DNA of 64,000 bases from Tubulanus polymorphus (taxonomy: Eukaryota > Nemertea > Palaeonemertea > Tubulaniformes > Tubulanidae), in contig NC_134027.1 in NCBI RefSeq assembly GCF_964204645.1, forward strand, positions 4,266,485 to 4,330,484, read 5' to 3'. Both the position numbers and the translations under genes were made by a program. Every line of letters starts with the position of its first letter. Within the stretch, counting starts at the first letter, position 1. The notes below the pieces were generated by a model. The model searched no databases. It saw only the letters and a list, made by a program, of their open reading frames with translations, and was not told where the DNA came from. Below are positions 4,301 to 61,119 of this stretch, piece after piece.

Positions 4301-7300
4301 ATTGAAATCAAATCTACACTAAAAAGCAGGTTCGGGAACAATCTATTCCTGTGTACATATGTTATGTACTGATGGATTGTCACACACCAAGATGGGGTAG
4401 AAAGAATTAGACACCTTGGTGATTTAATGGTCCGGAGAGGACGGCTGTGACGTCAGTGATTTTTCGGCCTGTGCCCCGTGCTGACATACAATTAGTCGGT
4501 GACGAAGCTAAATCAAGATGAAGGTCAATGTGGTGGGTCTTACCGCCCTCATGAATAATCAATGGTTTCAAATGTTCACAACCGGCGTCTGCTGAAAGTT
4601 AAAAATCGAACATAACTTGAACAAAATTTTAAATTTGATACCCAATAGGTCTATATCCTTTCAGGGAATTACGATAAAACCAAAATAATTCGAATTTATA
4701 TTCAATACTTTTCACAAAGGGTAACGTTTCAACGTTGTATGCCGGTGGTAAGATAACGTGTTGTCAACATATTTTTATATAGAACCTTGTTGTTTAATTT
4801 ACATATCGGAACTCTAGGCTGGGAATCGATCTAAATCCAGTAGGATGGATGGGTGGGTACACGACGTGTATATCGGATATATTTTCATGTTGACATCGAA
4901 TAAGCATTACGCATTTTCGATCGACTCGATGGTATATGAACTTTCGAGAAATTGTATTTACACGCAAAGGGAATTTGGAACTAAACTGAATAATCCTATT
5001 ATTTCAGATGGACAGCATGGCAATGGAATTTCAACCGCATATTTGCCGGATATTTATATTGTATATATTGTATATATACAATGGATGTAAACGATGAATT
5101 AATAATTTCATCTATGTATTTGACAAGACTTTCCAAATGTATGCATCAACTCTTATACTAGGTTGTACCATAAATACTTCACTCGATTAGCATCACATTA
5201 TATCAATTTATTATTCAATTAATTCAGACTTTGTTCGTATTTAATATATTAGCATTAACGAGTTGAGAGCGTTCGATATCTTGCGCGAGGCTTTCTGAAT
5301 AAATTAATATATTGTTATGTTCGCTGGTTGTATCACCTATTGTACACTATAGACCATACATATTCTATGATCAGATCATACATTGATGAGTGATTATGAC
5401 AGGACACTTACCATGATTATTACCGGTTGTGCCCGCATTAGTTATACTGCTCGTATTTGTCTTTTTATAATGGGCAGAATTCATGGTGAGCTTTCGGACA
5501 TTTTTCTCTGGTTGGAAGACAATTATATACATTTTCGGGCCAAACAAACACACAAGTGTAACGGATGCACTCAAGCTAATCGACACGCATAGTGTCGTAA
5601 TTTGAATCTGAAAAATAAAAAGAAATGAAATTCTATTTAGTCTAAAGGAACACCTCTGCATATTCAGGGTTATCTGTCATATGGATATTGCAGAAAATCG
5701 AAAAGCGTTCGATGTAACAACGCTCAGCGATAGTCGCATACTTGTCTTCTCACATGCCAGTCATCAGAAATCCTCCGGGGATCCTCGGATCTCAGACGGA
5801 CAGTTTACCGTTTTTGTATGTGAAATCTACCGAATAGTTAAGCTACTGTTGCTGCCCATCAACAGCCATTTATTGTGAGAAAGAAATCAACGAGAAAAAG
5901 AAATCGTCGATCACCAGAGTACAGTATAATGCGTTTATATACCGGTATACATAAAGATTGATGGAGCAAATGCCTGACGTTATTGAGTTCATTTTGTTTG
6001 TGCGACTATTCACGTATCACTCGATTTCGAGATAAAACCGATTAAAACAGTAATTACAGTAAATATCCAGGGATTCATCCATCAACAAATCGAATTTTCC
6101 GTCTGTAAAGGTTGAATATCCCATACAAAAAGAGGGTATAGAACTTTTTTTTTCTAGGTACAAATCGGGTGCGTGGATTCAGAAACAGAAAACATCTCCA
6201 GTAAACTGTAACTATACATCACTCCAGTAACAGGTATAATCGGCCTTGAGGAAGTATCTTCATCTTCGTATCGACGAAGACGCCCCATTTCGAGCTTGTT
6301 GGAATGCAATCGATGAATCGTTTTAAATGCAAATTTGATAATCTCTGCCCGAACTGCCAATATTCGAAACTGTCATAAATAAAGGTACGTTTAACATTCC
6401 AATGGAATGAAGTACTTGAAATGCTCTTTTTGAACGTTTTCCTCGGTCAACAACTAATCAGGCAATAAAAATCATGTTCTAGTTTTTCTACAATCAGTTT
6501 TCTTTGGTCTATAGAGTGCTGACCCTAAAATATACATTTTTCTTTCCTGGGTTTCTACGCAATACGCAGTAATCCATGCAAATGTTTAATATCGTTCATG
6601 TGTGGAATAAATTACACTGTAACGTAATAACATGAACGATGCTCCACCGACAGGAAACCTAACAGGATATGATTTATTAGTAAGCTAGGTTTCGAAGCAT
6701 TTAGCAGAACCATCGTCAGATATGTTACGCAGGATTTGTGTTTTTCTCATATTTTCGACGCATGTTTTCGTTTTTTCAGCTAATCCTATAACTTCATCGT
6801 CGGGTAAGCAAAACGATTTGAAAGAATTGGTACCATCTAGGCACGTCTGTGATGGATATTTGATGGACTTCTTGTCTTGATAATTTCCTAAAAAGTTTAA
6901 GTGTAAAGTTGTGTGCATTATCATTTTTCAGACGATGAAGTCTGCAAGGATAATGAAGTCGAGTACAGCGGATTATGTTACGGTTTTTACAATGGCATCG
7001 TTACAATAAATAGCGCTCATAGGTTATGTCCTCTGTTTGCGAGAGGTAGTGTTTTTGCTGGGCTACAAAGCGAAAACGACCAAAACTTCATGATATCAGA
7101 GATGAAAAGAAGAAACTGGAAATCAGCTTGGACTGGAATAAAAGTAACTCACAGTGACTGGCACTGGGAACAAGGTACACAAGAATACGTATTTTTTTGA
7201 TAATCACATGTTATTAGCAGGGCTTCCGACACTTTTGTTTCACATGTTGAAACCTTGTAGTTTTACCATTATGGTATGCTCCTTCAACAATGCTTTAAAT

Positions 7301-10300
7301 AGGTCGGTAATTATCTAGCATATCATACATGTATATACCTGCCTATCATATCAACCCATTTATATGTCCCATGACACAACCAAAATATGATAGAATACGA
7401 TTCAAAAAAGATTTATGTATTCATTCTTGCGAAGGCAAAAATTAATTTATAGATTCGATCAATGTGTCAAATTTAAGAAGGTTTTAATCAATCGTTTACA
7501 AATCCCACTGTAGATGGTGAATTTATAGCAGCCCAAGGCTGTTTCGAAGACAACATCAGGACTAAGGGTCACGATCTGCCTCATCCTACACTGATAGAAA
7601 ATGGATCTCTGACTCCAATAGTTTGTCGAAACGCCTGTAGTAACTTATCTTCGAGCATGAAGTACGCTGGTGTGCAGGTGGGTTTCCTAAACGGGTTTAT
7701 TTCCAATGACGATAACAACAAAATCTTCACTATCTTACTATTTCATAGGCCGGCAATCAGTGTTGGTGCGGTGAGAATCATCTAAATAGTTACAGCACAA
7801 TACCGTGTAATACTCCTTGCGAAGGCGACCCAACACTGACGTGCGGTAACACAAACAGACGTAACTACATCTACCGTATCAAAGGTACGTACGTTTTAAA
7901 CTGCGTATAGATGTGACGACGTTACAACCAAAATTATTTCGATTCAATTTACGTTGACTGTAACAGGAGGATTTTCGTCATGGGAGCCAGAAATGATTAA
8001 TAGAGGACCCACAGAACCGATGTGTGCACTATTATCGGCGCCTTCCTTTAATTGGAAAGAACGACGCTGTTGGTCAACGGCAAAGTTCATATGCGTTTTA
8101 CCGTTCAGCCAAGGTCAGTTTATTGAAAATTGTTATCACTACGAAATGAAGATGATTTTCCATTCATTCCATTTTGAATTTCAGAATGTGATTATAACGT
8201 TCATGAAAATCATTGCCTTTATGTGAGCGAAGATGAGAAATCATGGTTCAAATCGCGCGAGACTTGCCACTCGCTGGGAGGACATTTATTGACTATCAAA
8301 TCACAAGACAAACAGGAAATTATGGTTAAGTTTCTGAAATTCGAACAGAGAAAAACATCAGACTACTGGATCGGCGCATCGAATTTCAACTGGAAGACGT
8401 GGAATGGTAAGTTACACTAATTGTATATTGGATAAGTTTTAGATGCGTGACAATTTTCGGACCAATATTGACGTTTTGTCTGAGTTTATGATAATTGTGT
8501 TTGACAGGTTCACAAGTGAGGTATACAGGGCCATGGTCTACGAACAGTTGGTTTATGGAGCACGGTGACGAAAAATGCGTTCAGATGACTTTCGACCGAG
8601 CAAATGATGAATTAGTTTGGAACGTCGTTTCGTGCAAAGCAGATTCCCATTACATATGTAAACGAGGTGGGATTACAATGAACCTGTGTGCGAAAGCATA
8701 ACGATGAGTAAATCTCGCCTAACTCAGACAATCTGGGACAGCCAAAATTGGTCCGAATTAAGCGAGGTCCGAGTTAACAAATGGAAAGAAATATTTTAGG
8801 AAGACAAGAAATAGTTTCACTTTTTTGTCCGAGTTGGCCATGCCCGAGTTAGGCGAGGTTGACCTGTATAGTGGTTGATTTGTTACGCAAATTGAACAAA
8901 TTCACTTTCAGTTCTAACCCGGAGGTTGAGGGAGAAACCAGTACCTATCGTACCAGCAGCTTTAAGTGCCACATCGTCAACGGTCGCACCGCCTCGTTTG
9001 ATTTTTGTATTGATCATGATCCTAAGTTCAACAGGTATATCCATCCAGGGTTACAGGGGAATTACGCCGTCTCCTGTTGTCAACTTCGATCGCAACCTAC
9101 GCATGTATTCTATTCCGTGTTTTATCAATTCTTTTCTGTTTTAGATATCGTCATTAAGGCTTAGCTACTACGCTGGATTCGAGTGACTCATATCGAACAT
9201 TTTGCGAAATCATGTTAAAAATGTCTGTTATCGTGGACCCAGTAAAGTTTATCAAAGTTCATGTTGGTGAAACATTCAACTGACATTTATGGAGCCGGAT
9301 CCTGCTTTGTAAATCCTGAAACATATGATACGTGTGAAATACAGTTACTTCATTTTCTTAAGTCAATGTAACATATTGAACTGTTTTACTTGGAATTTGT
9401 TTAGCGGTTTCTATTTCTGAAATTAACATCTAACCTGGCGATTTTCTTTGTCCTAAATCTACCTAGAATAAAAAAGGCAATCAATGCCGTTAGATATCAG
9501 AACCTAGATTTGTATTATCACCGCGTCGAGGTCGGATCGTATAAATCAAGATATTTTTCAAAGTTAGTTCTTATGAATAAGAAAGACTGTCAACGAGATA
9601 TCTGAAAAGAAAGTATGAATCTTGGAAGGACAGTTATCATAATGTTTCGTATGATGAGCATAATCTATTGTTCAAAATCTACGGTAGCAGGTAAGGCTTC
9701 ATATAGCTAGTTATTTCACGATAATGTGTTTACGTGTAACTTGGAGCAAAACTTGTTCTTTAACGTTATTTTGCATTTCATTTGTTCAAGGGAACGTTAA
9801 GGTATATTTTTTGAACACGGTGTTGTTGATTTTAGAAAATGAATTTTGTAAGAATGGTGAGTTGGAATACAACGGATTTTGCTATTATTTTGTCAATCAC
9901 CCAAATAACTACGACGAGGCTATTAAGCTATGTCCTATGATCATAAAGGGGAGAACATTCGCAGGGCCAGAAGATGAAAATGAAGAAGCATTCATGATAT
10001 CTGAAATAGTTAATAGAAAGTGGCCATCGGCTTGGGCTGGAGTTAGAATACAACATGGAGATTGGCATTGGGTGCAAGGTAAAAAGAATCAGAATCAACT
10101 CCTCTTGCATGGGTCCTTTGATTTTATATCTTACATCAATTCACATTGGTAGATAATCAGTTCATCGCGGCTCAAGGTTGTTATGAGGATGATGTGAGGG
10201 GAAGTCACATGTTCCCTTACAAAGCATCGATTAAGAACGGAACGTTGACGCCGATAGTTTGCCGGAAAGCTTGCCGGGATTTAAACTTCAATTATGCAGG

Positions 10301-13300
10301 ATTGCAGGTTGATATCTAAATTCTAAAGGATTCGTCATTATTTGAAACGAGTATACCATGTCAGCAAATATATTCCAATATTGACAGGCTGGAAACGAAT
10401 GCTGGTGTGGAGCAGTGATAGGTAATCATGGTTATAGCACGATAGCATGCAACGTGTCTTGCGACGGAGACCCGAAACTTTTATGTGGTAACTTAAAGCG
10501 TAACTATGTTTATCGCCTCGATGGTAAGTAATACACGATGAATACAATTTCTATAAACATTTAAGTACCGATTCATCTACATGCATATATTTTTGTATTG
10601 TATGCGTACTGTATTGTCAAGGGTATGTTTAACTATTCATATTCACATCATTTATATAAAAAGAAACGGAACTAATGAAACCTTGATTTCAGGAGGTTAT
10701 TCATCATGGGAACCTGGTTTGATAAATAAATGGGACTCGGAACCGCTTTGTGCAGTACTTTCTCTACCGTCGTACAATTGGAATGATCGCCTTTGTCAAA
10801 CTGAATATCTATATATTTGTGATTTAACTGTAGCTTCTAGTAGTAAGTTTAATGTTGAATTCATTACATAATAAAATTTCATTTTGACTAATGGTCGCAT
10901 GAAATATGTATGCTGCCAAAATGGCTTTTCATTTACAGAATGTGTACATTCTGATGTTGGTAATTTTTGCCTTTTAATCAGCGAAGATAAGAAATCATGG
11001 TTCAAATCACGTGAGACTTGTCACTCGCTCGGAGGACGTTTATTGACCATTAAATCACAAAACAAACAGGAAATTATAGCAGAATTTCTGAAGTCTCGTC
11101 AGGTGACTGTAGGTCCATACTGGATTGGTGCTTCAAATTTCAACTGGACGACCTGGCATGGTTGGTTGAAATGCTTCTATGGTCTGATCTCTATATCAAC
11201 GATGACTCGATTAATATTTTTGAATTTCTCTAGGGACTCCAATTATCTATACAGGCGAATGGGCCAAGGGAACTTGGATTATGAGATATGGTGGAAAAGC
11301 TAGATATGTTCAGATGACAGTGGATTCACTGAATAAAACAATTTGGAAACTGGTGCCCTCCACAGAAGTATCGTATTATATATGCAAAAGAGGTAATAAT
11401 CAACGTGCGAATATCAACTGAATACTGTAATTGATGACAGGGTTTTTCTATAGAAAATTATCCATTGAATAAAAACTGAAAGTTAAGTTGTTTACAGAAA
11501 AAAATCCATCACTGACGTCACCACCTTCATCGGCATCAACTACAGTTGGGATTACAACTAATTCAACCGTTCAAACATCAAACGTCGTGACTACATCACC
11601 GCAATCATTAACCAGTATTACTGCAGTCTCAGAGAATCCTACAGTAAAATCATCGTCATCATCATCTTTTACAGCAAATACACGGAAAAGACCAACAACC
11701 TCAACGACCACATCGGCAACTGCTAGCAACCCGAAGCAAAACTATAGTTCCTGGGGAGTTACCTTAGGTCTTGGGATATCGTTAGGACTCATGATTATCA
11801 TATTTGTCGTAGCAGCAATAGCAGTGTTCATTTACAGGTATTTAGGTTAGATTTGATTTTGCCAAATATGAGTTTTCTTTTATACTTTTAAACTCCATTA
11901 CATAACTGTTGGGCTGTCATATGAATTTGGCAAATCATTATTGTCATTTGGTTTTTAGAGAACGGCTTTTACGGTTGAGACAAGGTGAAATGCGACGCCA
12001 ATCTGCAAACGAAGATTTCGTTGACTCAATTGAAACAACGTCATCAACATACCCACTAACCTGATTCACAAATTCGTAATTCTTAAGCAAGTAGTTAATA
12101 TATTCTTCAGAGTTCGTCCAAAATAAAACTTTAAAAACCTTGAAACTCTTTTTACACCAATTTAGTTTGAATTACCATATCCATCTACTTATGATGATAA
12201 TATTTCTATTCCAGAAATGTGTTTGAGAAAAGAGTTCGGCACGGGCTATAAGTAATATTGTGAAGTGCATCGTTTTCACGGATAGCCGTGAACTAATACG
12301 AGGTTCAGACAAACTGGATTTTGAGAAAATCAATGCCTTGGGTAATAACTGAATGTAACAAATATACTTAACTAAAGCTTTAAGAAGATTGCTGATGATG
12401 GCGCTCTTTAACGATTTCGTCTTTGATCGGCGACGATGTTTTGCCTTCAGACATCGCTAGCGAATCGTTGGAGAAGATGTGTAAATTTGGCTGACATAGT
12501 TGCCTTATCGTATAATGGAATATTGATCAGGAAGATTTAAAATTTGCCGTTGGATTCTGAATTGCGGGAGCTTGATGTTGCTTAAATTAGACATGGGACT
12601 CTTTCGGAGCGGTATAGTCAATCCTGATTTATGACTGATTGTTAGCTCGGTAACAAATAGAAGATAATTCTTAGCGCTGTATTGAAGTCTTGCGCGGCTG
12701 ATTTGATAAAGTAGTCGTTTAGGTGTACGGCAAGTATACAGCGTGTCATTGTCAATAAAAGAATATTGAAAACTCTAAGATTCCTTCTTATCTAACAAGT
12801 GGTGAATGGTCGGCCGCATTTGAGGCAATCTGTTATTCTACTGATGTTGGTTTTCAGCTTTTTCTCAAACCAATAGAAGCAGGATTAGAAGTTTTTTTTA
12901 AAGAAACTATGCTCCTGGGAAAACTAAAATTCCCAATGCGTTAGAATATTGTGAAGAGATTTTCAATTCATTTCCTTGGCAACCGTATAAAAAAAACACA
13001 ACGTCACCAAATGAACCAAACGAAAATGAGCTCAACTTACTGTTATCGTCATTTTGGAACATGAAACGAAATGAATCTTCAACGAGATACCTTTCGATTG
13101 TGACTACCCATCTTCAACAATCAATTCTGGCATCTATATCAAACGACTCAACCAACCCGACAACGACTTGACGTTGACGATCATTGCAATCTCAGCGTAT
13201 GAGATATACCTGGCGGGAAACCCGATACGTCACTATATGTTATCTTTCATTTATAGAGTTAACTTGAACGGGATTGGGTACTGACTCAGTACTCACTCAC

Positions 13301-16300: not shown

Positions 16301-19300
16301 CGCCAGTCCAAAGTGAGGGATATGATTTATAACCAAACGATTTATCAGATTTAGATGAACGATGAATTAACGGCGATGACGCCTCAAGGACACGCAGACA
16401 CGTAACCCCGCGTAAAAAATTTGCATCGATATACCAGCGACTTAGAGCTACAATATTTACACGTTTTGTGAGCTATACTTGAAATTTACGACGCTTTGAT
16501 TTAAATTGAATTCAACAGTAATAGTCCACGTCATAGTTTACGTCATCGATATTGATTTGTGACACAAAATATATACTTTGGTTAGGCGGCTTAAAATTGG
16601 ATCAGTAATAGTCGATTATTCGTGCAATACATATAATGTATATATACGTACGATAATTATATAGACGCACATTTGAAAAAAATATCCCTATAATGGCATA
16701 CGCCCAGGCCGATAGAAAACAACTACGTAACGACGTTGATAAGCAGCACGTCACGCATATTGGACGTGAAAGAACTGCTGGGTAAAACTTATCGATCGAC
16801 GAGTGTATTGTCTAGATCAGTACCGCGGGAGATCTGATTCACGATAATACCAACGTCAACCTGATCACAAATTCAAGAAAACTCAATCCATCATTCTTAG
16901 AATTTGAATTTAAAAGCAACGGATATTTATTTAAGAATTCTTTAATGATGATATCTGAGCGACGCGGTCGGGTTTCTGGTTGCGCGGTTTTATTGACGGT
17001 GAGAAAAATGTTCGCCAAGTGAAACAAAAATTCATGTATTTGGTAATCTTGGAAACAAGACGATGGTTGAACAAGAGCCATGAAAAACTTCAGTTGCACG
17101 AATAGGATTGTTCATTATTAAGTGACCACCTGCTTCTTGAAACGTTCACCCTTAACATGATTTGGGAAACGAATCCTCAGAAAGTAATTACTTTCGTACG
17201 ACCAAATAGCAATTATCGAACTCAATTTTCAGTTACATGCAGGGACCGGAACGCATCGACTCCATAGTGGATAAAGGTGCTACGGTATAGAAAAATACCA
17301 ACCATTCGTAGACAGTCCGTTGGTAACGACAACAACTCGTCAATCGAATACGTCGATAATATTGACTGGTAAACGGGTGATTTTGGCGGAATTCTCAATA
17401 GGAAAACATCCGTGAAATTTCTGCAGAGGAAGTGATCGATCAAGGAAGTAATCACTGTTGGAAATTCAACGGGTATTTGAAGTTTAAAGTAAATAGTGAA
17501 ACTATGAGACTCTAGCGCACAGCTTAATAGAATAAGCAGACAGTCGACAGATCAATCTCAGGATCTTAACGATGATGATAAATGGTAATTATTTGATTGT
17601 TATGAGTATTGGGATATCACTTATTCGGTAGGTTTTATTCTGGAGTACGACGCTGAAGATTTGAAGTGTAGAAATTAATGACTTGCAAGTATAAGTGAGG
17701 GTACTTACCTCGAATGAATTGAGTGTGCCGAAGTAGATCGGAACAAAGGCAAGCCATATGATACATGTGGTATACATCGTAAATCCTATAAACTTGGATT
17801 CATTGAAGTTCTCCGGAATTTTTCTGGTTTTCACAGCGTACACAGTACAAACAATGATTAATAACATTATATAAACTAAGGATATTAGGAAAGACATGTC
17901 ATCAATTTTACATTTCAGAATTACTTGGTCCCTTCGTCCGTTCGGGTTGTATTGACGCGTCCCCGGTGGTTCTAACACTAACCAAATACACGTTGATAAT
18001 ACTTGTATTGATATCAATATAGTACATATCACAAGTTGAGATTTGGGGCTTATAAATGCGGGCCGTTTGGCCGAGCGGCTGGCACTGTCAAATATTCTCG
18101 AGATGCGGTTTGTTTTAGTCAGTAACGACGCATACATCACGGCGAATCCAAACCCGACACCGAATCTCTGAATTGCGCAGATCGCCGTGGAAGGCTTTGC
18201 TAAAAGTATAAACGAAATAGTGTAACAAATTAAGCACCCTGATAGTAGCATGAAGCATAACTCACGCCCAGACGCTTTCACAATCGGGGTATCGATATTC
18301 CGAAAGAAATAAAACATCACTATTGACGTCATCAGGATCCCGATACACGATAGGACTGAAGGGACAATAGCAAATACACTATTCCACTTCATATATTGTT
18401 CTTGAAGAGAAAAACAAGTTTTTCGGTCCGAATGCGGCCATCGACCCGTCCCACAATCTTCGCAAGTGAATTCATCTCGAAGGAATTCCCATGGTTGACA
18501 TTTTGTGCAAACCCAGCAACAAGTATCTCCTTGTTGGACATTTTTGATTTCTCCATCACCACAAGGTTGGCTACACGCCGACTGCGGTATTCGCAATGTT
18601 CCTCCGGCCCAAATCATTTTGGATGTATTCAGTTGAAGACCGGCCGGGGTCCATTTACCGACACGTTTATACCAGTAACGACGGTTGCTGCGATTGCGTT
18701 GAAAATTCATGATGTGATAGCGACCAGCTGCGTCTCCTCGTTCATCAAATTGTACAACTCCCCCATAACCATCTGAAATTATACACCAATTATAATTACC
18801 ATTAACAGGAGCACTATATTCATTAGCAATATTTTGTTAATTCTACAATCTATCCATGAAATTATCTGAAAAATCAAAATTACTCTACACACACTTTGGA
18901 CATGGTTTTATTTAGTTGAACAACATTGCGAAATATATGACCTAAAAACAATCACTATAGAATACTTAGGAAATCCTTAATTACTGGACATGTTTGCTTA
19001 AGACATATAGAAATACCCTTCAAAAGAAGTTACGCAGGAAAATGAATCAAAGCTATACGAATATATCTTTCTTCGAGGGTTGCGGAGTATTTACTCGTTC
19101 GAGCAGCGATAAATAAATTAGTCCTTGTGAAGTTCACACAAAGTGTCGGATAAGCCAGTGGAGACAGTATCGAGAATTATTCAGTTATGCTTCATTAATC
19201 AAATAGATTATCCTAACACCATGTTGTTAGGTTTGTATATTGGATTAGGTACGTGTAGAATATTTTGGGATGCTCTCACAGATTTCTGAGTTTGGTAAAA

Positions 19301-37300: not shown

Positions 37301-39865
37301 ATTGATAATCTTAATATAAATCTACGAACACGTGGCTGATTGATGTCTGGTTTCTATTCCAACGCATCATTCTAAAGACGAATCACCCCTGGACTATGAG
37401 GTATGGCAATCATTGACATCTGCATCAGTTTCTAACACGATATGAATTTACAAACCACATTTCATTAATCACCGTAACAAAACGATTTTACTCAGTGGTT
37501 ATTGCATCCTTTTGATTTCTCTTGCACCTTCGTAGATAGGTATCTGTCTAAACCCGATGCAACGGCTAATGTGGTTTTCACTAGTACAGTACTTAGCTTG
37601 TACAGGATTAAGTTTCAGTTTGATTTCAACGTTTTACCAGCTCTTCCAATTATTCTAGATCGAGCGATTCACTTAAAAAAACAATTAAAGCTTGCGCATG
37701 AAAAAGATAAATAAGCGCAGAGACGCATTGGGTTCGATAAATTGATGTTGAATTGATTGTTTTCGATTTTGAGCTGATGTAATTATAAACCTAGGCACCA
37801 GTAACGACAACTGCCATTGTCAGCCTGTCTCATTACGACGGGTGGAGTGTTTAATGGCGGATCTACGATTTCCGGGGAAGCAATAATAACGGATACAAAC
37901 ACTTTCCCCTCGGATGATGGTGCGGTAATCGTATTTTCTCGGCACACGTTTCAAGAAAATTCCGTAGGCGACAATGGAGATTGATAGAATTCCACGATTT
38001 GTGAATTCATAGTTTGAGGCTAGAGATTCATTAGTAAACGATGTAATTATAACGTAAAATGGTTCCTATCAACTTCGCTTTCGCGTTTGAAACAATTCCA
38101 TAGATGTCATTATCAAGAGTTATTACAATCATCAAAACGCGGCCCGGCGCGCGTTAGAAAACTTCCCAGGGAAATGATCAAATTGCGCCATCAAACTTAA
38201 AAACCATTAAAAATTATAACTTTCAAGTGGAAATACTGAGCCGATATGGGTGATAAATCTAGGATTATTTTTCGCCATAACAATCATAAATGTCTTAAGA
38301 ACGTATGTGAACTACGCAATGCACACCCCAGAGCTCCTAGTTCCGGTGAATATATTTCAACTCACATTAAACCACATTTACGACTGATTTATAAATCACA
38401 TAATTTTTGTATACTTTTATATTTTTAAAGGTAAATAAATATGTATGAAAAGAAAACCTTTTTTGAGAAACTTACCGTCAAAGGTGCTGTTGAGAATATA
38501 TTTCGTGAATAATTCGGTGCCATCAATCGGTTGCATTCGTTCGCATAGCTTGTATTCTCCAGGGCACAGGTCTCTGTGCATATTGTGTAGAGCGTACGCA
38601 AAAACGTAAACGGCATCGTATATGAACTGGGCCTTGCTTTCCGGCTGATAAATTCGGGACGTCAACTTTTCGTTTCCCGAACAAACGGTCGTAGTGTTAT
38701 CATGCGGATGAAACTGACATTCGTGGATATCTTCCCAATATTCAGTGAACCACGGGTTAACTGTATGGGTCCGAGGATGTAAACTTTTGAAGTAAATATC
38801 GTTAGACGGTATCGGGTTCGTTTGTAGCTCTATAGTTATTGCGCCTTCGGCTGCTAACTCGTTGCCTTTTACTGGACCTTCTTGAAGTCCCCAACCGTCA
38901 CTCGCAATCCAGGTAAACTGGTCAGTAACATTCTGTCTGGATGCCGCGTCCAACAGTTCCTTCGAATCCTCAAGTCTGATGAAAAGGATGACGACCTTCG
39001 CATTCGGTTTTCGTTGCAATTCGTGAATGATATTATCAAACGTCGAGTCTTTGGAATTAGCGGGAATTTTCACTTGAATAGCTATACAGATATTTCTGGC
39101 CCTGGCTTCCGCTGTAAAAGAATCGATGCCTGGCTCACCGTAATCACCATCTGATGCTACTGTTGAGACGTATGTCCAGTTGAAATGCTCAACTATGTCC
39201 ACCATTGCTTTGGCCTGAAATGTATCGGGTGGCAATGTCCTGGCGAAGAAATTGAAACGACCTTTATCACTCAGGGCTGCACTAGTAGAGGCATAACTTA
39301 TCTGTGGAATTTTAAAAAGGCGTAGGAGGTTTGCAACTTGTATCGAGACAGTACTGTACGCTCCTCCGACAACTCCGGCCACTGCTTTGAATGATGACTT
39401 GGGTTTTGCTTTTGAATTGTCAGAACAGATGAATTCCGATGCGTCTAAGGTGCTCATCGATGCCCGAACGTATTCAAGTGACTGTTCCAGAGCATAAGTT
39501 TCTCGAGAACACGTATCCAAAATATTAGCACCTAAAGTTATATTGGTCAAAATATCAGTCCTTGCGTTTATTTCGTTGATCGTGTACAACATAGTTTCAA
39601 GACGCTGGATTCCACGTTCGCCATTTAACAGTCCGCATGGTTTGTCTCCCGAGCCTTTCGTATGGACCGGGAACAGACCCCCTAATATAATGTCCCCGGG
39701 TATACGGACGGCTTTGTTCGACGGGTGATGCGTATCGTTGCGGTCTGGTTGGCCAGTTTCTAAATCCGTTCGGTATAAGTTCGTTACGCTACTAGTCACC
39801 AGTATGCTCGACAACATCAACAAAAACAAAAATCTTGGCGCCATCAGCCTAGTGACCTTACCCAT
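1256..39865 (-). CDS. mGluR: Metabotropic glutamate receptor, group II-like (complete, 4 coding exons)
   Basis: Class C G protein-coupled receptor that binds L-glutamate through an extracellular Venus flytrap domain and signals through a seven-helix membrane domain; group II members usually couple to Gi/o. Coding exons on the minus strand are 38476-39865, 17709-18772, 5412-5607 and 1256-1368. All junctions are AG/GT with matching phases (1, 0, 1), giving 920 residues, a normal length. Order: signal peptide, ligand-binding domain (about 50-490), cysteine-rich domain (about 530-583), 7TM (about 595-850), cytoplasmic tail. The GRGIQR-type arginines (R84, R88), S171, YAST at 191-194, Y242, D323 and K411 match known glutamate-contact positions of mGluR2/3. 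[27 protein letters not shown] and the TM7 sequence [10 protein letters not shown] are closer to group II than to groups I or III. Assignment to an ortholog group is by eye. Two lectin genes lie inside intron 2 on the other strand. Confidence 0.95.
1369..5411 (-). other. mGluR: mGluR intron 3
   Basis: 4.0 kb bounded by GTAAG (5411 side) and TTCCAG (1369 side). Two exact TGACGTCA octamers lie here (2651, 4448). No other coding signal was recognised. Confidence 0.8.
5412..5607 (-). CDS. mGluR: mGluR coding exon 3: TM7 and proximal cytoplasmic tail
   Basis: The acceptor TTTTTCAG|ATTCAAATT at 5608 continues phase 0 from exon 2, 12.1 kb away. The exon encodes residues 819-883: TM7 ([20 protein letters not shown]) and the conserved [14 protein letters not shown], as in group II receptors. 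A Thr/Ser/Asn-rich proximal tail follows. The donor is CATG|GTAAG at 5411, phase 1. The preceding exon ends exactly where this sequence begins in family members. Confidence 0.93.
5608..6721 (-). other. mGluR: mGluR intron 2, part before the lectin genes
   Basis: Intronic for the receptor and 5' flank for lectin gene A on the plus strand. No motif beyond ordinary AT-rich sequence was identified, and I could not place a TATA box or initiator for gene A. Confidence 0.6.
6722..6803 (+). CDS. Gene A exon 1: signal peptide
   Basis: ATG at 6722 starts [20 protein letters not shown], a positively charged start and a hydrophobic core, then a few polar residues. The donor is TCGG|GTAAGC, phase 1, matching the next acceptor. 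Position and phase parallel gene B exon 1. Confidence 0.82.
6722..9144 (+). CDS. Lectin-like gene A: CTLD with nested WSC domain, then a second CTLD
   Basis: Predicted secreted or membrane-anchored carbohydrate-recognition protein. Exons: 6722-6803 signal peptide, 6932-7174 first half of CTLD1, 7514-7677 and 7749-7884 WSC domain, 7967-8113 second half of CTLD1, 8185-8406 and 8508-8666 CTLD2. A probable last exon starts at 8912. All junctions are phase 1 except the phase 0 intron inside WSC, and the frame stays open throughout (384 residues through 8666). CTLD1 has six cysteines but neither EPN nor WND, so classical calcium-dependent sugar binding is doubtful. CTLD2 has all six cysteines and the WIG motif. 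Paralogous with gene B, whose exons 2, 4, 6 and 7 have identical lengths (243, 136, 222, 159). The 3' end is uncertain. Confidence 0.88.
6932..7174 (+). CDS. Gene A exon 2: N-terminal half of CTLD1
   Basis: The acceptor is TTTTTCAG|AC, phase 1. It holds the start of a long-form CTLD: three cysteines (EVC, GLCYGF, RLC), the SAWTGIKV core that replaces WIG, and DWHWEQG at the exon end. The domain is cut just before the long loop, which resumes in the exon at 7967 after the WSC exons. Length 243 equals gene B exon 2. Confidence 0.9.
7514..7884 (+). CDS. Gene A exons 3-4: WSC domain nested in CTLD1
   Basis: Exons 7514-7677 and 7749-7884, with a 71-base phase 0 intron between them. The domain starts GCFED, carries VCRNAC, YAGVQ, CWCG and [11 protein letters not shown], and has all eight WSC cysteines. 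WSC is an extracellular module of fungal cell wall sensors and animal proteins such as polycystin-1 and Kremen, thought to bind carbohydrate. Both outer introns are phase 1, so the pair of exons is a symmetric module. Confidence 0.92.
7967..8113 (+). CDS. Gene A exon 5: C-terminal half of CTLD1
   Basis: Resumes the lectin fold: [30 protein letters not shown]. The last three of six CTLD cysteines are here. The usual EPN tripeptide reads MIN at the aligned place and WND reads WKE, so both calcium/sugar motifs are lost. Phase 1 at both ends. Confidence 0.88.
8185..8666 (+). CDS. Gene A exons 6-7: second CTLD (CTLD2)
   Basis: Exons 8185-8406 (222) and 8508-8666 (159). Six cysteines (ECD, NHC, ETC, EKC, VSC, YIC) and the [10 protein letters not shown] core. 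The intron interrupts the domain right after W-x-x-x-W-N-G, the same place where the WSC exons lie in CTLD1. No EPN or WND motif. If the last intron were retained, translation would stop at 8701 and give a secreted form. Confidence 0.9.
8705..8868. mobile_element. Short inverted-repeat element (MITE-like), inside gene A last intron
   Basis: The left end reads AATCTCGCCTAACTCAGACA. The right end, on the other strand, reads CAGGTCAACCTCGCCTAACTCGGGCA and is followed by TA. About 160 bases long with no coding capacity. A CAG-type terminus beside TA is what non-autonomous pogo/Tigger-like elements show; the family call is an inference and the left terminus is diverged. Confidence 0.55.
8912..9144 (+). 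CDS. Gene A possible terminal exon (stalk, short hydrophobic segment)
   Basis: The acceptor TTCACTTTCAG at 8911 gives, in the required phase, [19 protein letters not shown], which resembles the start of the gene B stalk ([17 protein letters not shown]). A short hydrophobic run (LIFVLIMIL) follows, then a stop at 9142-9144. The hydrophobic run is short for a membrane span, and a donor near 9034 (ACAG|GTATAT) may lead on to other exons. Alternatively the gene has a decayed 3' end. Confidence 0.45.
9145..9614. other. Spacer between lectin genes A and B
   Basis: About 470 bases between the possible end of gene A and the start codon of gene B. It should hold the gene A 3' end and gene B promoter. 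No clear poly(A) signal or TATA box was singled out. Confidence 0.4.
9615..9690 (+). CDS. Gene B exon 1: signal peptide
   Basis: ATG at 9615 begins [20 protein letters not shown]; the donor is GCAG|GTAAGG, phase 1, joining to give ENEFCKNG. The hydrophobic core is modest but the position equals gene A exon 1. Confidence 0.78.
9615..12064 (+). CDS. Lectin-like gene B: CTLD with nested WSC, second CTLD, mucin-like stalk, TM and tail
   Basis: Predicted type I membrane receptor of 528 residues. Exons: 9615-9690, 9836-10078, 10153-10307, 10388-10523, 10693-10842, 10939-11160, 11234-11392, 11498-11837, 11959-12064. Layout: signal peptide 1-25, CTLD1 first half 26-106, WSC 107-203, CTLD1 second half 204-253, CTLD2 254-380, Ser/Thr stalk about 381-468, membrane span about 470-492, cytoplasmic tail to 528. 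Every junction joins in frame. CTLD1 keeps WND (YNWNDRLC) but not EPN; CTLD2 lacks the fourth and fifth cysteines as a pair. A tandem duplicate of gene A lying antisense within a glutamate receptor intron. The ligand is unknown. Donors at 11161 (GTTGGT) and 11838 (GTATTT) are weak but give the right phase. Confidence 0.92.
9836..10078 (+). CDS. Gene B exon 2: N-terminal half of CTLD1
   Basis: The acceptor is [38 protein letters not shown] and DWHWVQG mark a long-form CTLD that stops before its long loop. Length 243, as in gene A. Confidence 0.9.
10153..10523 (+). CDS. Gene B exons 3-4: WSC domain nested in CTLD1
   Basis: Exons 10153-10307 and 10388-10523 with a phase 0 intron at the same codon position as in gene A. 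Eight cysteines: [32 protein letters not shown]. The first exon is nine bases shorter than in gene A, within the variable loop. Confidence 0.92.
10693..10842 (+). CDS. Gene B exon 5: C-terminal half of CTLD1
   Basis: [33 protein letters not shown]. The WND calcium motif is intact while the EPN position reads LIN. Phase 1 at both ends, donor AGTA|GTAAGT. Confidence 0.88.
10939..11392 (+). CDS. Gene B exons 6-7: second CTLD, missing one conserved disulfide
   Basis: Exons 10939-11160 and 11234-11392, lengths 222 and 159 as in gene [11 protein letters not shown] is retained. At the places of gene A EKC and VSC the sequence reads KAR and VPS, so the two cysteines that normally pair are both gone, while the outer pair (ETC, YIC) stays. 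Confidence 0.87.
11498..12064 (+). CDS. Gene B exons 8-9: Ser/Thr stalk, transmembrane segment, cytoplasmic tail
   Basis: Exon 11498-11837 encodes about 85 residues rich in Ser, Thr and Pro (likely O-glycosylated), then the hydrophobic span [20 protein letters not shown]. Exon 11959-12064 adds [15 protein letters not shown] and a short tail ending STYPLT, stop TGA at 12062. No ITAM- or ITIM-like tyrosine motif is visible. The basic residues after the span fit a type I topology. Confidence 0.88.
12122..12127 (+). terminator. Poly(A) signal of lectin gene B
   Basis: AATAAA 58 bases after the gene B stop codon, on the correct strand. Confidence 0.55.
12128..17708 (-). other. mGluR: mGluR intron 2, part after the lectin genes
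   Basis: AT-rich intronic DNA. Contains a 34-base near-palindrome at 14177-14210. No further exon, repeat family or RNA gene was recognised. Confidence 0.6.
14177..14210. repeat. Near-perfect palindrome
   Basis: The arms AGTGGGTGT and ACACCCACT are exact inverted repeats around a core containing GTACATGTAC, itself a palindrome. It could form a hairpin or cruciform. No role is evident. Confidence 0.6.
17709..18772 (-). CDS. mGluR: mGluR coding exon 2: cysteine-rich domain and TM1-TM6
   Basis: The acceptor TTTCAG|ATGG at 18773 joins exon 1 to rebuild GAT (Asp464) and then [20 protein letters not shown], the expected end of the ligand-binding domain. The nine-cysteine domain runs from about residue 530 to 583, with the CCWVC motif. 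Six membrane helices follow, with TKTNRI in loop 1/TM3 and PENFNE before TM6. The donor is TTCGAG|GTAAGT at 17708, phase 0. The methionine at 18710 that opens the uninterrupted frame is internal, not a start. Confidence 0.95.
18773..38475 (-). other. mGluR: mGluR intron 1 (19.7 kb)
   Basis: Bounded by a GTAAG donor and a TTTCAG acceptor that restore Asp464. Open frames of up to about 120 codons occur on both strands, but none shows a domain, codon bias or splice context I trust. Five TGACGTCA octamers lie here. No tandem repeat of note. Confidence 0.75.
38476..39865 (-). CDS. mGluR: mGluR coding exon 1: signal peptide and glutamate-binding domain
   Basis: Encodes residues 1-463 plus one base. 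The first in-frame ATG is at 39865, but Met8 (codon 39844-39842) begins a more typical signal peptide ([19 protein letters not shown]), so either may be the true start. Ligand-site residues R84, R88, S171, T194, Y242, D323 and K411 are present; the serine two residues before S171 in mGluR2 is Ala169 here. The donor is GACG|GTAAG at 38475, phase 1. The reading frame continues a few codons into the intron before a stop, which is only read-through. Confidence 0.95.
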
Positions 39866-42607
39866 AAAATAAATGAAGATTGTTTTTCCAGCAGAAGCGG
39901 TAGAACGCCTTCCATCAACACTCTCTATTTCGCAGACTCTATCGAACTCTTACAGATGTGTGTTTATCTCAACTTACGATGGTCCTATTAGTTCGGCAGC
40001 GTGATGGCCAAATATACTCCAGAGTGCGAGATGCAAATATAACCTCATTACGCATATCTCAAATCACAATGATTATGCTAAATATCATCACGTGTCAACT
40101 TTCACTACTGCTTTCATCAAAGCAAAACTTTTTTTCTATCGAAAGCTTTTTGTATTTTTCTTCCGCGTAAATGGCTTCATCCAAACGGGACAAGACGATT
40201 GACACGCGCGTACCGCTTGTAGATTTCACTGAACGCGTGACTTGATATTTTCCACTCTCTCAGTTTTTATCTCTTTCAACCGCTCACAGTGCCTGCGAGT
40301 CGACAAATGAAGACGGACGATTAGAACGAATCAATATGCAGCGGTGATACGCCACCATCGGTCGTTCATAGCGACACGTCTCTCTACACTGCCGGTTAGT
40401 CTGAAACGAAACGAATTAATACTTCCAACGTTATTTCACATAGAAAGCGGTGAACCCATAACCATCAATTGAAAACCGGTAATTTATCAATGAGTCACTG
40501 ATAGAGATTATGGATGCGATTGTCACTGTAATGTGAGTGAATACCGATAAAAAAGCGGGCTTATCTCATCTAGCATGTCTAGCTTATTCTTGTGAATAGA
40601 TCGTAACTATTTTTCTAATTAGATAATTGGATCCGACTTTATAATGGAATCAATCGCCATTAATTATCAGGAAATCACGGTGTCAGAGAGAATCATTTCT
40701 GAAGGGCACAGTCAGATATCCGTTCAATGCCCGACCAGTTCGGTTCGTATTCTTAATTCTATCCGAGCCGAGTTTATCAATGACAGTTCATTAAGACACT
40801 CATTATTTCGCCCGATGAACGATCTAGAAATAAAGCCAAACTTTATCGATGTTAATGTAGGCCTACTTTGAAATCAGGCATCCATCACAAACACGTTTAT
40901 GGTTTTCAAATGTTTAAATGAGCACCACAACATGAGAGTCCGAAAATTCCTGAAGATCACGATTAGGTATAGTCGAAACGTCGAATCAATAAACTATTAG
41001 CTTAAAGGGAACTTTTCGGACTTCATCGTTCTCGTCTTATTAGCTTGGTATTCTCTTTATAACGTTATAAAAAGGACATAGTGTATCATCAGTGGTTATT
41101 CAGTCTATCTAGGAAAAAATGTTACTGGCTATCACAGAATCATGGAAGTTCGTCGTGGATTATTATTCTGCGTCAGTTTCTACACCACCGCTGATATACA
41201 AGGTTAGCATTCGGAGGTAAACAAGCGCGCAGGTTTTTTACGAACTATTTGGCTTTTGTCACAAGCAGTGTACTGATGACAGGTTTAAAAACAACGGCCA
41301 ATATCCATCAGATATTTTGTTCACGCGAAATCGGCGCTGTCTTCAATTTGGTTACGGAAATTGCAAGAGTTGGCGACAAACACAGATACCATTAGTGAGG
41401 AAATAGTTACACACCACCGACATACAAACTGATAAAAATGAAATCTGATGACAATTCATGGTACGTCTGTCGCCAAGTGGCGATCTTTGTTAGCTATCGG
41501 TAATGACGGACTGTAGCTTATAAGCCGTCAAATTTGCTCGAAGGGACTGTATCTAAGATTCATTGTCGCGTTACGAATACCACTATATCGTGATTTTTTA
41601 TTGATTTTTTGATATTTTGAGAAATAAGTAATTAAGTCATCAAAAAGGTGATACAGGGACCGATGAGCCACGCAAAATCCACGCGTTATTTGCTCAAACA
41701 AGTCGAACTGACGCCTTTGATGTCTCCATACACCAAATTATAACCTTTCCCAGTTAATCAATCAGCGTTTTGTTGCCACATGGATAAAAACAAATTTTCT
41801 AAGCAAGTATAATTAGATTATTGATCGTCGAAATTCTCAGTAATTGTCGTCTTATCAGTAATGTGTAATTCAAACATTTCGATCCCCTTTTCATATAAAA
41901 ATGACCCAACTAATGTAACGTCAGACTTAACGATAGACGTTTGCAGTAGTTTTGGCGGCGTCGATATGTGACGATATTGAACGGCAGCAAGTGCAGTATA
42001 CGATCAATTGATACGACGGCTTTATGTACACAGAGTCAACAAGAAAATGTCTGAGAGGCTAATGTCAAAAAGCAACGCCCTAAAATGATGTTAAAATAGT
42101 GACAGAAATAGAAGCTATCGCTACCAGCTATAGATAATATACAGGTCGATTTTTCGTAGGCAAATCTGCCATCACGAATAATCATCATATCCTAAACATA
42201 TTTTCAAAGGAATTATAATTAACCGAATCTTCTATTCCGTTTCCAGAAAAGTTCTATATGGGTAAACTTTGATTAACTGCCAAACGACGAACGCCAACAG
42301 AGAGTGAGGAATTTGATTTCCCTTTTACAGCCCCGTTCAATAGACAAAATGATGAACACTTGGTTGGCTTTGATGACGCTATTCCGGCGGAATGTTAATT
42401 TCGGTATGTTTAATGGTTTTTGCTAGACATGGTAATCGGCGGTTATGGTGCCACAAAAAAGATCTAGTACAGATTCATTATCGGCGCAATTTTCTCCTTG
42501 AAAATGAAATCTGTTCTTCCGACTATTGTTTGGAAAATCCCCAAACAGTCATATCTACAGTATCACTATAGGTGAAGCGAAATAGATTTGATTTGAGAAA
42601 TAGAAAT
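39866..42607. other. 5' flank of mGluR
   Basis: Upstream of the receptor start on the minus strand. It should contain the 5' UTR or an upstream intron. No TATA box or convincing 5' exon was identified. Confidence 0.4.
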
Positions 42608-45323: not shown

Positions 45324-47368
45324 ACCTAAAATCAATCGGTTGCTAATGAGATTTTACATGAAAGTTTCCACCATGATATAATAGCTGAGATTTGATTTCG
45401 ACAAGAGGCTATCAGGAAGAATTACAATCATAACTGTGCCCGAGTTGAAATTGATATCTATAAAAAAGTACTTGATAATGGGTTTAAATCACTTTAAGAA
45501 CTTAAATGTTTCGTGAAAGGCAACTTGGAAACAGAGTAAACAGAACTGTTATGGTGACATGCACTCACCGAGGAGCAAGCGGAAAACTATTGCAGGAAGA
45601 AATTAATAAATCTAATCTGCTATACTCGACATCGGTGAATGTAACCATTGGTTTGTAAATGATGCGAGAACGTTTTTTGCCAGTCGACAATAATTTGCGG
45701 GAGCAGTTTTTCAAATAACCACATTAAACAACGTGTGCATCGTTGTAAGTAACGCAAATGGCGCGAGCGTAATGCAATGCGATGCCATTATTTGTCTCAA
45801 AAATACATAAAACCCAGTGGTCCGAAAATCAAGACGCCATAGGACGAACTAAGCGTCAGACGCTTACCTAACAAGTTTATAGATTTGATGTTTTATCGAA
45901 CTAACAAGTTTATAGATTTGATGTTTCATCGAAACTAACGCTATAACAATGGTGTTGATTCAGAGAGGCAAAATGCGTACACGGAATGGTGAAAATTGAC
46001 GCAATATCGTGCAACCTTATGTAAAATATTTCACCATTGGGAATCGCAGTTGTGGCCACGCTTATATCGCGGTGACTCTTAACTAATAGTGTTTTCATGT
46101 TTGCCTTGGTACCGAGTAATAACAGTTGCACAAAACCCCCGCAGCATCTCGGAACTCGCCTGATAAGCAGCTGATGCGGTCCTCCTAATATCGCACTCCA
46201 AAGATCGATCCCATATTACGAATGAGTTGTGACAAGTTTCTACGCATAAGGTGCCTGCAGGTTTTACTATGTACATGCAGTTAAGTACCTCTCATCAGAA
46301 GGTCCCGGTATAACAATTTCAGGTTACGAAAAACACTTCTGTCGTCTTAACGTTCTTGTCATTTTTTATGAGATTTTTGTTTATCTGTTTGACCGTAACA
46401 GAGATATCGTGAGAAATCAGCATTCCCATTACAAATCCAACATAACTATTCTACTTTTCTACTTCGCAAATTGCATTTACGTTATTGCTACCATTATTAG
46501 TGTGTATTCATGTAATTAGGTAATTACTTCTGTTTGTGTATTTTCAGTTGTTAATCTTCTGCTGAAATTGTACGACAGAAAATGGGTTTTGCGGAGTTGG
46601 GATGGGTTTTACGGTCGTTTGAACGAATTTGCCAGGGATGGATCAGTTTAACCATATTTATATCGGATGTGAAGTGTCTGTCATAGCGATACAGAATTGA
46701 TTAGCGAATATGCCAGTCAATTTTAGTGCGGACTGTATCATATTTCATCATATATCACTTCGAATAATCGAGCATGATTGACCACTGTTCATACCAGCCT
46801 GTCGGTGATAGTACATACTATTGCTGATGTAACGAGATTTCATTTCGTGCGTGTATAATTCCAATGGCCCTGTGCGGGATTCCAGATATCGGTGTAAACT
46901 CTATTTGCCTACGCTAAGGTCACTTGTATAAGCGCACAAGGGTAAATCAATTTATATATCGAATATAGTGATAGATAGTTATATAGATTGACACTCTCAT
47001 CCTCTGGCCCTCTTGCACTATTAACTATTAACACTAATATAATCAACTCCGGTCATGAGGATTACCAAAAAAATTCATTTTTCCTAAAGGCCTACTTTCG
47101 TATCATCCATACAACTATGGTGGCTGATAAGGGCCACATGTATTATCTTTGATGTGACTTCGATCATGAAAAAACGCAAAACGAAACTTATGGAAAACCT
47201 AGGTGTTGTTTAATGAGTTTGTAATCAAAATTGGGACGATGAAACATCAAACACTTAGAAAAGCTGCGATCATACGGAGCCGATTTGGACCATTCACTCA
47301 TGTGATCGCAGCTGTGGGAAATATATTAATGTATGGATTTGGAGTTCTATGAATGAGTGTTATGAGTG
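45324..47368. other. Intergenic, one short tandem duplication
   Basis: AT-rich. Apart from the 33-base duplication at 45868-45933, nothing is supported. Confidence 0.5.
45868..45933. repeat. Two tandem copies of a 33-base unit
   Basis: Units 45868-45900 and 45901-45933 differ at one base (TTTTATCGAA against TTTCATCGAA). A simple local duplication. Confidence 0.85.
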
Positions 47369-47444
47369 TTAGGTTAGGTTAGGTTAGGTTAGGTTAGGTT
47401 AGGTTAGGTTAGGTTAGGTTAGGTTAGGTTAGGTTAGGTTAGGT
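47369..47444. repeat. Interstitial (TTAGG)n array
   Basis: About 15 perfect copies of the pentamer TTAGG. This is the arthropod-type telomere unit; most other animals use TTAGGG. A short interstitial tract may equally be a plain microsatellite. Confidence 0.95.
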
Positions 47445-50393: not shown

Positions 50394-50964
50394 ACGAGAA
50401 CTTACGAAAAGTGACACAAATACGTGAATCGATGCTCAAGATTCATCAGGGAGGACCCCTTCCTCCTCCTGCAGGGATTCGAACCTGATGGCATCGAGAC
50501 TCGCCACGGTACTGCCACACTACCCTCCAGGTACATGGACAGCTTAGATGATGTCATTTTTAGCCAATCAGAAATCTTGTTTTACGAGAACTTACGAAAA
50601 GTGACACAAATACGTGAATCGATGCTCAAGATTCATCAGGGAGGACCCCTTCCTCCTCCTGCAGGGATTCGAACCTGATGGCATCGAGACTCGCCACGGT
50701 ACTGCCACACTACCCTCCAGGTACATGGACAGCTTAGATGATGTCATTTTTAGCCAATCAGAAATCTTGTTTTACGAGATCTTACGAAAAGTGACACAAA
50801 TACGTGAATCGATGCTCAAGATTCATCAGGGAGGACCCCTTCCTCCTCCTGCAGGGATTCGAACCTGATGGCATCGAGACTCGCCACGGTACTGCCACAC
50901 TACCCTCCAGGTACATGGACAGCTTAGATGATGTCATTTTTAGCCAATCAGAAATCTTGTTTTA
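50394..50964 (-). repeat. Three tandem 190-base units derived from a tRNA-like SINE
   Basis: Period 190: the marker CTTACGAAAA recurs at 50401, 50591 and 50781. Copies are nearly identical (GAGAA against GAGAT at one boundary). On the minus strand each unit has a Pol III B box, GGTTCGAATCC, at 50475-50485, 50665-50675 and 50855-50865, preceded by a tRNA-like stretch with GTGTGGCAG. The T-arm pairs imperfectly and there is no clean cloverleaf, so this is SINE- or satellite-like, not a tRNA gene. Repeated 84-codon frames on the plus strand are by-products. Confidence 0.8.
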
Positions 50965-59880: not shown

Positions 59881-61119
59881 CTGTAAATGCTAAATCAAAA
59901 TCAAATCGTTCCAGTAAATACATTTATTTGTTGCAATTCCGTTATCGGGTATGTCATACAGTCGTTATAGCGAATCGTAAAATACCGTGCAAATGATAAC
60001 AGGGCATTGTAAGATATTCGGCCACAGTGAAAATGTATTTCATATTTTGCTTTTTTCATAAGGTTCATAAAGTAGCTAATCGACAGATTTGATTGAATTC
60101 GGTTGTGTCAGCGACGAAAGGGTTAAAACACAAATCCCGCATTGAAGGTTGGTTGGATCTCCGGATCTCAGCGTCATAGAATCTGTTATATATGTTTGAA
60201 CAAATCTGAGATTTTCAATATTTTACCATAAAGTGACGTATAATTTTCGAGGTAAGCTAAACAGATAACATAGTGCATCTTAAACGTTCTTATGTAGGCC
60301 TGCCACAGCGTTTTATATAGCTTGAAATTGTGATAGTGGCAGGAATATCCAATGCGCAATATGGTGCGCTGTCGAGCCATCGTTATAGGGTATGTATTGA
60401 TCGTATGATGGTATAACCCATGAGATGCTGGTAGATATGGTACTGTGTCTGTATGACAGAGACGACATTTTGCTGCGAATATGAAATGATTGCCTATCAA
60501 AGTATATAATTCCCGACACTGAAAATGCGTATTTTCAAGAATTTTCATGGTGAATAATGCATCTATGGCATAGTGTAAAAAGCATATAGAACAAGTTTTG
60601 AAATAACATGAAATTCGCTATTCATTGAACGCCGTACATATGCAAGATGGTTAAAACTCAAACGGGTTCCTTAAAAACAGATATGATAATGAATTTGACC
60701 CAAACATAAATTCCCAGTAATTGTTTAGGACACTCGTTCGGGTTTTGTGCACTAATAAGATGTGCATCAAGATTAGAGTACAGACTGATATATAACGACG
60801 TTTTGACCCGGTAATATGCAGGTAGGATAGGCCTAACCTATCAGTTTGACCGTTGTCAATGTAGGACTAACTACTTTCCATGCAAACCGCGGTCGGTCAG
60901 TGTCTCTACTAGATTACATTAAGAGCTGACTTCTGAGGTCAATACCACAAATATCTTACCGGTATATCAATTTGAATTCTAGTTGTGATGTGGACAATAG
61001 GTAGGCATAACATTCTTGCTATCCCTGATTAAAAGATTTCAGCTTTGAGGTCTATAATCCAGTTTCTTGTAAATCATTTTCATCTAAGCCTGTTTTTTTT
61101 TTCATCAATAGATTCAGAA

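Follow-up and report, generated by a model that had tools for sequence, protein, structure and literature searches.

Two tandem genes, here called A and B, in a 64,000-nucleotide window of the genome of the palaeonemertean Tubulanus polymorphus (contig NC_134027.1, positions 4,266,485 to 4,330,484 of the forward strand) each encode a C-type lectin domain (CTLD) that is interrupted in sequence by a complete WSC domain. Our preferred reading, to which we assign a probability of roughly 0.66, is that exons 2 to 5 of both genes make one CTLD into which the WSC domain intrudes where the long loop begins, that insertion of an exon cassette produced this order, and that the CTLD acts as a pedestal beneath a WSC recognition surface. 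The genome holds at least seven genes with the nested CTLD-WSC-CTLD order, the two in the window and five on other contigs. The interrupted domain is termed CTLD1 (halves a1 and b1) and the one behind it CTLD2 (halves a2 and b2). Gene A is composed as follows (window positions):

6722 to 6803, plus strand: exon 1, phase 0 to 1, putatively signal-peptide-like; missing from the public protein P0002
6932 to 7174, plus strand: exon 2, CTLD half a1, phase 1 to 1, with cysteines C0, C0' and C1 and WHWEQ as last residues
7514 to 7677, plus strand: exon 3, first part of the WSC domain, phase 1 to 0
7749 to 7884, plus strand: exon 4, second part of the WSC domain, phase 0 to 1
7967 to 8113, plus strand: exon 5, CTLD half b1, phase 1 to 1, with cysteines C2, C3 and C4 and the motifs SSWEP, NWKERRC and FIC
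8185 to 8406, plus strand: exon 6, CTLD2 half a2, ending in a phase-1 intron near the site that holds the WSC exons in CTLD1
8508 to 8666, plus strand: exon 7, CTLD2 half b2
8912 to 9034, plus strand: exon 8 in public model P0002, C-terminal tail that contains a weakly hydrophobic stretch
9145 to 9164, plus strand: last exon in public model P0002, with the stop

Exons 2 to 5 of gene A have AG/GT at all borders and form a single open frame. When exons 2 and 5 are joined, they match the Pfam profile Lectin_C with 35.8 bits (cut-off 22.6), unbroken from profile position 4 to 106. Singly, exon 2 reaches 18.4 bits, below the cut-off, and exon 5 has no match. Exons 3 and 4 match the Pfam WSC profile with 57.1 bits (cut-off 27.8) and contain eight cysteines with a spacing of 28,4,18,2,13,4,8. 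A sequence-only reading of this DNA had described exon 2 as a first CTLD half with three cysteines ending at W-H-W-E-Q-G, exon 5 as the second half, and two exons between them as an eight-cysteine WSC domain; borders, frame, the joined Lectin_C match, the WSC score and the cysteine count all agree with this description. Its placement of the insert at the long-loop position also stands at the level of the sequence, as the WSC domain lies directly behind W-x-W, where the long loop starts. The nesting itself holds in sequence and gene; in three dimensions it is not settled, and the available structure model does not close exon 2 with exon 5. The sole database protein found for gene A, P0002 (LOC141901024 isoform X2), matches the gene. 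Its N terminus is a methionine within exon 2, so that the first CTLD half of gene A is only partly present in it.

Under the preferred reading, exons 2 and 5 would close one CTLD core, and the C1-C4 disulfide (C60-C251 in gene A, C58-C246 in gene B) would bridge the insert. The WSC domain would sit where a CTLD normally carries its ligand loops, with its own first and last strands adjacent in its sheet; strands beta1 and beta5 are adjacent in the WSC fold according to passages of PMC5014086 and PMC9024836.

Gene B (9615 to 12061) is a tandem copy with the same domain order as gene A:

9615 to 9690, plus strand: exon 1, N terminus, phase 0 to 1
9836 to 10078, plus strand: CTLD half a1
10153 to 10307, plus strand: first part of the WSC domain
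10388 to 10523, plus strand: second part of the WSC domain
10693 to 10842, plus strand: CTLD half b1
10939 to 11160, plus strand: first half of CTLD2
11234 to 11392, plus strand: second half of CTLD2, without C2 and C3
11498 to 11837, plus strand: Ser/Thr-rich stalk and transmembrane segment; the acceptor in P0001 lies later, at about 11674
11959 to 12061, plus strand: short cytoplasmic tail

The public protein P0001 (LOC141901023 isoform X2, Tubulanus polymorphus) agrees with this model apart from the later acceptor of the stalk exon. With the signal exon excluded, synonymous change between A and B is high (pS 0.53-0.91), while pN is 0.21 for the WSC domain and 0.32 and 0.33 for the CTLD1 halves. 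This low pN beside a high pS argues that the WSC domain and both CTLD1 halves have been kept. In the second half of CTLD2 of gene B, C4 is kept and C2 and C3 are both gone, a paired loss of one disulfide.

The five further genes lie at the following places:

L019, the gene of public protein P0007: contig C6 near 5.19 Mb
L020: contig C6 near 7.89 Mb
L021: contig C6 near 7.91 Mb
L022: contig C11 near 4.30 Mb
L024: contig C6 near 3.16 Mb

P0007 (LOC141906951), encoded on another contig than A and B, has the same domain order at 34% identity to P0002, and the exon joins are present in all three database proteins P0001, P0002 and P0007. WSC and Lectin_C appear in the domain lists of the public proteins, where the split is not visible. 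The joined CTLD1 halves exceed the Lectin_C cut-off in every gene (A 35.8, B 35.2, L019 47.1, L020 43.7, L021 36.8, L022 28.8 and L024 32.1 bits), as does the WSC domain its own (57.1, 64.6, 54.9, 61.1, 56.7, 46.3 and 55.9 bits in the same order). L022 lacks part of its first half, which limits its match to profile positions 22-106. All six CTLD1 cysteines (C0, C0', C1-C4) are found in A, B, L019, L020 and L021; L024 has six with C1 shifted, and L022 lacks C1. Eight WSC cysteines are counted in 7/7 genes, with final intervals of 2, 13-17, 4 and 8, and W-x-W precedes the WSC domain in six genes (W-R-F in L021). The recurrence of one domain order in gene B and five further genes makes the arrangement more than chance.

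The genomic loci were found with P0007 as query and by scans with the Pfam families, which gave 75 matches for WSC and 63 for Lectin_C. In the latter scan, 150 of 342 candidates were scored, and its overlap with the WSC list was picked out by eye. Since the WSC list lacks the WSC exons of four members (A, B, L019 and L022), the count of seven genes is a minimum. A further locus, L023, was left out of the family, as it has CTLD exons to which no WSC exon was matched. Another locus outside the family, L025 (G000:C9:13944500-13954000), has a WSC exon beside CTLD exons, without nesting, and one of these CTLD exons carries EPN and WND. The second part of its WSC domain shares 58% identity with the L020 counterpart, and L025 is possibly a side-by-side relative of the WSC donor.

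Intron phases are identical in all seven genes wherever the intron is present: the first CTLD1 half is a 1-1 exon, the WSC domain a 1-0 and a 0-1 exon, the second CTLD1 half again a 1-1 exon, and CTLD2 consists of two 1-1 exons. A phase-1 intron separates the CTLD2 halves in every gene; in gene A it lies three alignment columns from the position of the CTLD1 break and holds no insert. Arrival of the WSC domain by intron-mediated insertion is therefore likely, since the cassette is in phase 1 at both borders and a phase-1 intron lies within about three residues of the corresponding place in the neighbouring CTLD. The ancestral gene would have been a tandem-CTLD receptor with a phase-1 intron just behind W-x-W. 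A WSC cassette of two exons, bordered by phase 1 at either end, may have entered that intron, leaving the frame unbroken, and multiplication to at least seven genes would have followed. According to an excerpt of PMC514892, CTLD genes of fish are known to carry an intron on the downstream side of the WIGL motif. Two features considered as widespread in this genome were dropped: the WSC-internal intron, as the WSC exon on contig C9 starts elsewhere, and the phase-1 CTLD intron, as the CTLD exons on C9 look to be in phase 0.

Four of the seven genes (B, L019, L020 and L021) seem to encode type I membrane receptors that have a Ser/Thr-rich stalk. P0007, the product of L019, combines a stalk and a transmembrane stretch with a tail containing D-N-P-L-Y; in L020 and L021, stalk and membrane stretches and D-N-P-x-Y are found in downstream, unspliced open frames. 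Gene B encodes a transmembrane segment; its tail is short and lacks NPxY. The D-N-P-x-Y motif stands behind the ectodomain in L019, L020, L021 and L024, suggesting endocytosis or adaptor binding by these members; in L024 the NPxY occurs without a placed membrane segment. No NPxY was found in A, B and L022. A long tail frame of L024 (positions 6489-7247 of the locus) holds two NPxY motifs and Y-D-V-I twice. The C terminus of gene A (8912-9164) is a short tail containing a weakly hydrophobic stretch, in contrast to the stalk and transmembrane segment of gene B, and its product may be secreted.

CTLDs with calcium-dependent sugar binding carry E-P-N or Q-P-D plus W-N-D motifs. In the family, E/Q-P-N/D is found in none of the 14 CTLDs (both CTLDs of seven genes), and W-N-D solely in CTLD1 of gene B. 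The sequence-only reading had also taken the CTLD for a carbohydrate-binding fold, which these motifs do not support. The recognition surface would probably be the WSC domain, or the WSC domain with the CTLD edge, standing on the CTLD as a pedestal, rather than a canonical calcium-dependent sugar site. Our best guess from this layout is a family of recognition receptors, several members of which would be built for uptake.

A number of observations weigh against one or another part of the preferred reading. Its functional part is read from the layout only. The stalk, membrane segment and tail of L020, L021 and L024 are downstream open frames, not spliced models, and no transmembrane segment could be placed in A (best value 1.8 in the hydropathy scan), L022 or L024; in L022 and L024 the sole flagged hydrophobic stretches (2.2) belong to frames that could not be placed. 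Exons 3 and 4 comprise 300 bases and have phase 1 at both outer borders, so that a transcript skipping them would stay in frame and again encode a CTLD; the six genes with separate exons could therefore also make a plain-CTLD isoform. Taken further, the WSC exons could be an optional cassette, with cells making both a plain and a WSC-bearing CTLD, in keeping with the isoform X2 label of the public A and B models. The WSC domain, however, is included in all three public proteins found, and L022 cannot skip it without losing the end of its CTLD: there the end of the WSC domain and the second CTLD1 half form one continuous exon and are therefore translated together, whatever the splicing. We regard regular production of both forms as improbable.

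The closure of CTLD1 is challenged by two further observations. In the low-confidence structure model of P0001, built from three aligned sequences with a mean pLDDT (predicted local distance difference test) of 51.9, the CTLD spans exon 2 to exon 7 and not exon 5. In L022, C1 (exon 2) and C4 (exon 7) are lost, which would leave two unpaired cysteines if exon 2 pairs with exon 5. Both fit an exchange of halves, in which exons 2 and 7 form an outer CTLD, exons 5 and 6 an inner, circularly permuted one, and the WSC domain lies on one of the two crossovers. If this were true, the nesting would hold in sequence and not as one closed domain, and CTLD halves would be exchanged within a single molecule that also carries a third domain as an insert. 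Still, we consider it unlikely, if worth keeping in view. The confidence of the model is low (35-37 in four sister models), and its structural matches run from residues 25-30 to 379-387 in all 50 rows shown, numbers that give the first and last aligned residues only. In Foldseek, the matches of this model to the Protein Data Bank (PDB) are weak, and one of 584 reaches an E-value of up to 0.001. Two similar CTLDs in one chain also invite mix-ups in a model, and the neighbouring exons 6 and 7 form an ordinary CTLD. Exons 6+7 score higher than 6+5 in three of the seven genes (A 60.4 against 51.7, L020 51.5 against 48.8, L021 53.5 against 48.9 bits), although such profile sums cannot show which halves touch. 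A correlation of r 0.65 on the side of the exchange has n = 7 and contains a shared term. Exon 7 of L022 is altered throughout, with its two cysteines off the C2 and C3 columns, and its missing C4 need not be the loss of a pair. Distance correlations between halves do not separate the two pairings (partial r of 0.62 for a1-b1, 0.23 for a2-b2, 0.57 for a1-b2 and 0.36 for a2-b1). Three items were not used: the model of P0007 (mean pLDDT 35.7), the matches of the P0001 model to predicted viral structures, mostly named C-type lectins, and the length of the linker between C4 and the C0 that follows it (10 residues in L024, 6-8 in the other six genes).

Exons 2 and 5 could also be what is left of two separate, broken CTLDs next to a WSC domain, as the weak first halves of L022 and L024 might suggest. 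We give this hardly any weight: the joined halves exceed the cut-off in 7/7 genes, six cysteines are present in 6/7 (with the shifted C1 of L024), and the comparison of A with B shows constraint on both halves. One CTLD interrupted by a WSC domain remains our preferred reading, and the family offers a concrete protein for asking whether CTLD halves exchange within one chain.

Elsewhere in the window, the following features were seen:

17592 to 18836, minus strand: pieces of a family 3 G-protein-coupled receptor gene, metabotropic-glutamate-like
38420 to 39949, minus strand: pieces of the same kind
47368 to 47444: perfect array of the pentamer GTTAG, 15.4 copies
50394 to 50964: three copies of a 190-base unit, 99%
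61033 to 61734, plus strand: open frame with a HEPN_DZIP3 domain, 42.1 bits

The receptor pieces have 7tm_3 and NCD3G in one frame and ANF_receptor in the other. The 190-base unit shares the word ctgatggcatcgaga with an intron of L022 (about 5200-5520, minus strand), and the tRNA-like gattcgaacc, in the other orientation, is also common to both; the unit is perhaps a tRNA-derived short interspersed nuclear element.

No description of a WSC domain nested in a CTLD turned up in searches of an open-access library, which is consistent with the earlier suggestion that the nesting is undescribed. Protein database searches yielded only three members of the family, all of them from Tubulanus. These are three of the seven genes of a single genome, so absence from other organisms means little. 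The first protein search scored only the 7995 candidates sharing most words with the query; the WSC proteins P0003-P0006, covering 12-16% of the query, were dropped.

With CTLD proteins in general (PF00059), the family shares the profile match, the six-cysteine long form, tandem CTLDs and, in CTLD2, a phase-1 intron behind the WIGL region; it differs in that CTLD1 is interrupted by a complete WSC domain and that E/Q-P-N/D is absent. CTLDs tolerate variation in the long loop, and here, in a single animal, seven or more genes have a whole folded domain at that place. Endocytic receptors resembling the mannose receptor have several CTLDs, a type I layout and a tail signal; several CTLDs recur here, and some members of the family seem to share the layout and the signal. 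The Tubulanus proteins additionally have a WSC domain, and only Lectin_C and WSC were matched in them. The snaclecs of snake venom exchange long loops between subunits. Bitiscetin, EMS16 and rhodocetin are the top structural matches of the low-confidence P0001 model; unlike the Tubulanus family, snaclecs are single short CTLD chains without an insert. Among sequences of solved structures, the WSC domain of gene A matches only 5fww, 5fws, 7bzt and 6snw (Kremen1) at an E-value of up to 0.01 (best 2.7e-4). The cysteine spacing of Kremen1, 25,4,16,2,17,4,8 as calculated from disulfide numbers in a part of PMC5014086, indicates the same cysteine order with different loop lengths. As far as that part describes it, Kremen has Kringle, WSC and CUB domains in a row, whereas the Tubulanus WSC domain lies inside another domain. 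Neither Kringle nor CUB was matched in Pfam scans of A, P0001, P0002 and P0007, in which only Lectin_C and WSC exceeded the cut-off; for the four other genes, the scans covered just the CTLD and WSC pieces. Polycystin-1 and the sea urchin REJ proteins have WSC and CTLD in one protein (excerpts of PMC1934368 and PMC9672506), and Wnt binding is reported for the CTL and WSC domains of polycystin-1 (excerpt of PMC9672506). In the portions of these sources at hand, they are separate domains of very large multi-pass proteins, whereas in Tubulanus they are nested in small ones. The Tubulanus family would show how phase-matched shuffling can place a domain inside another instead of next to it.

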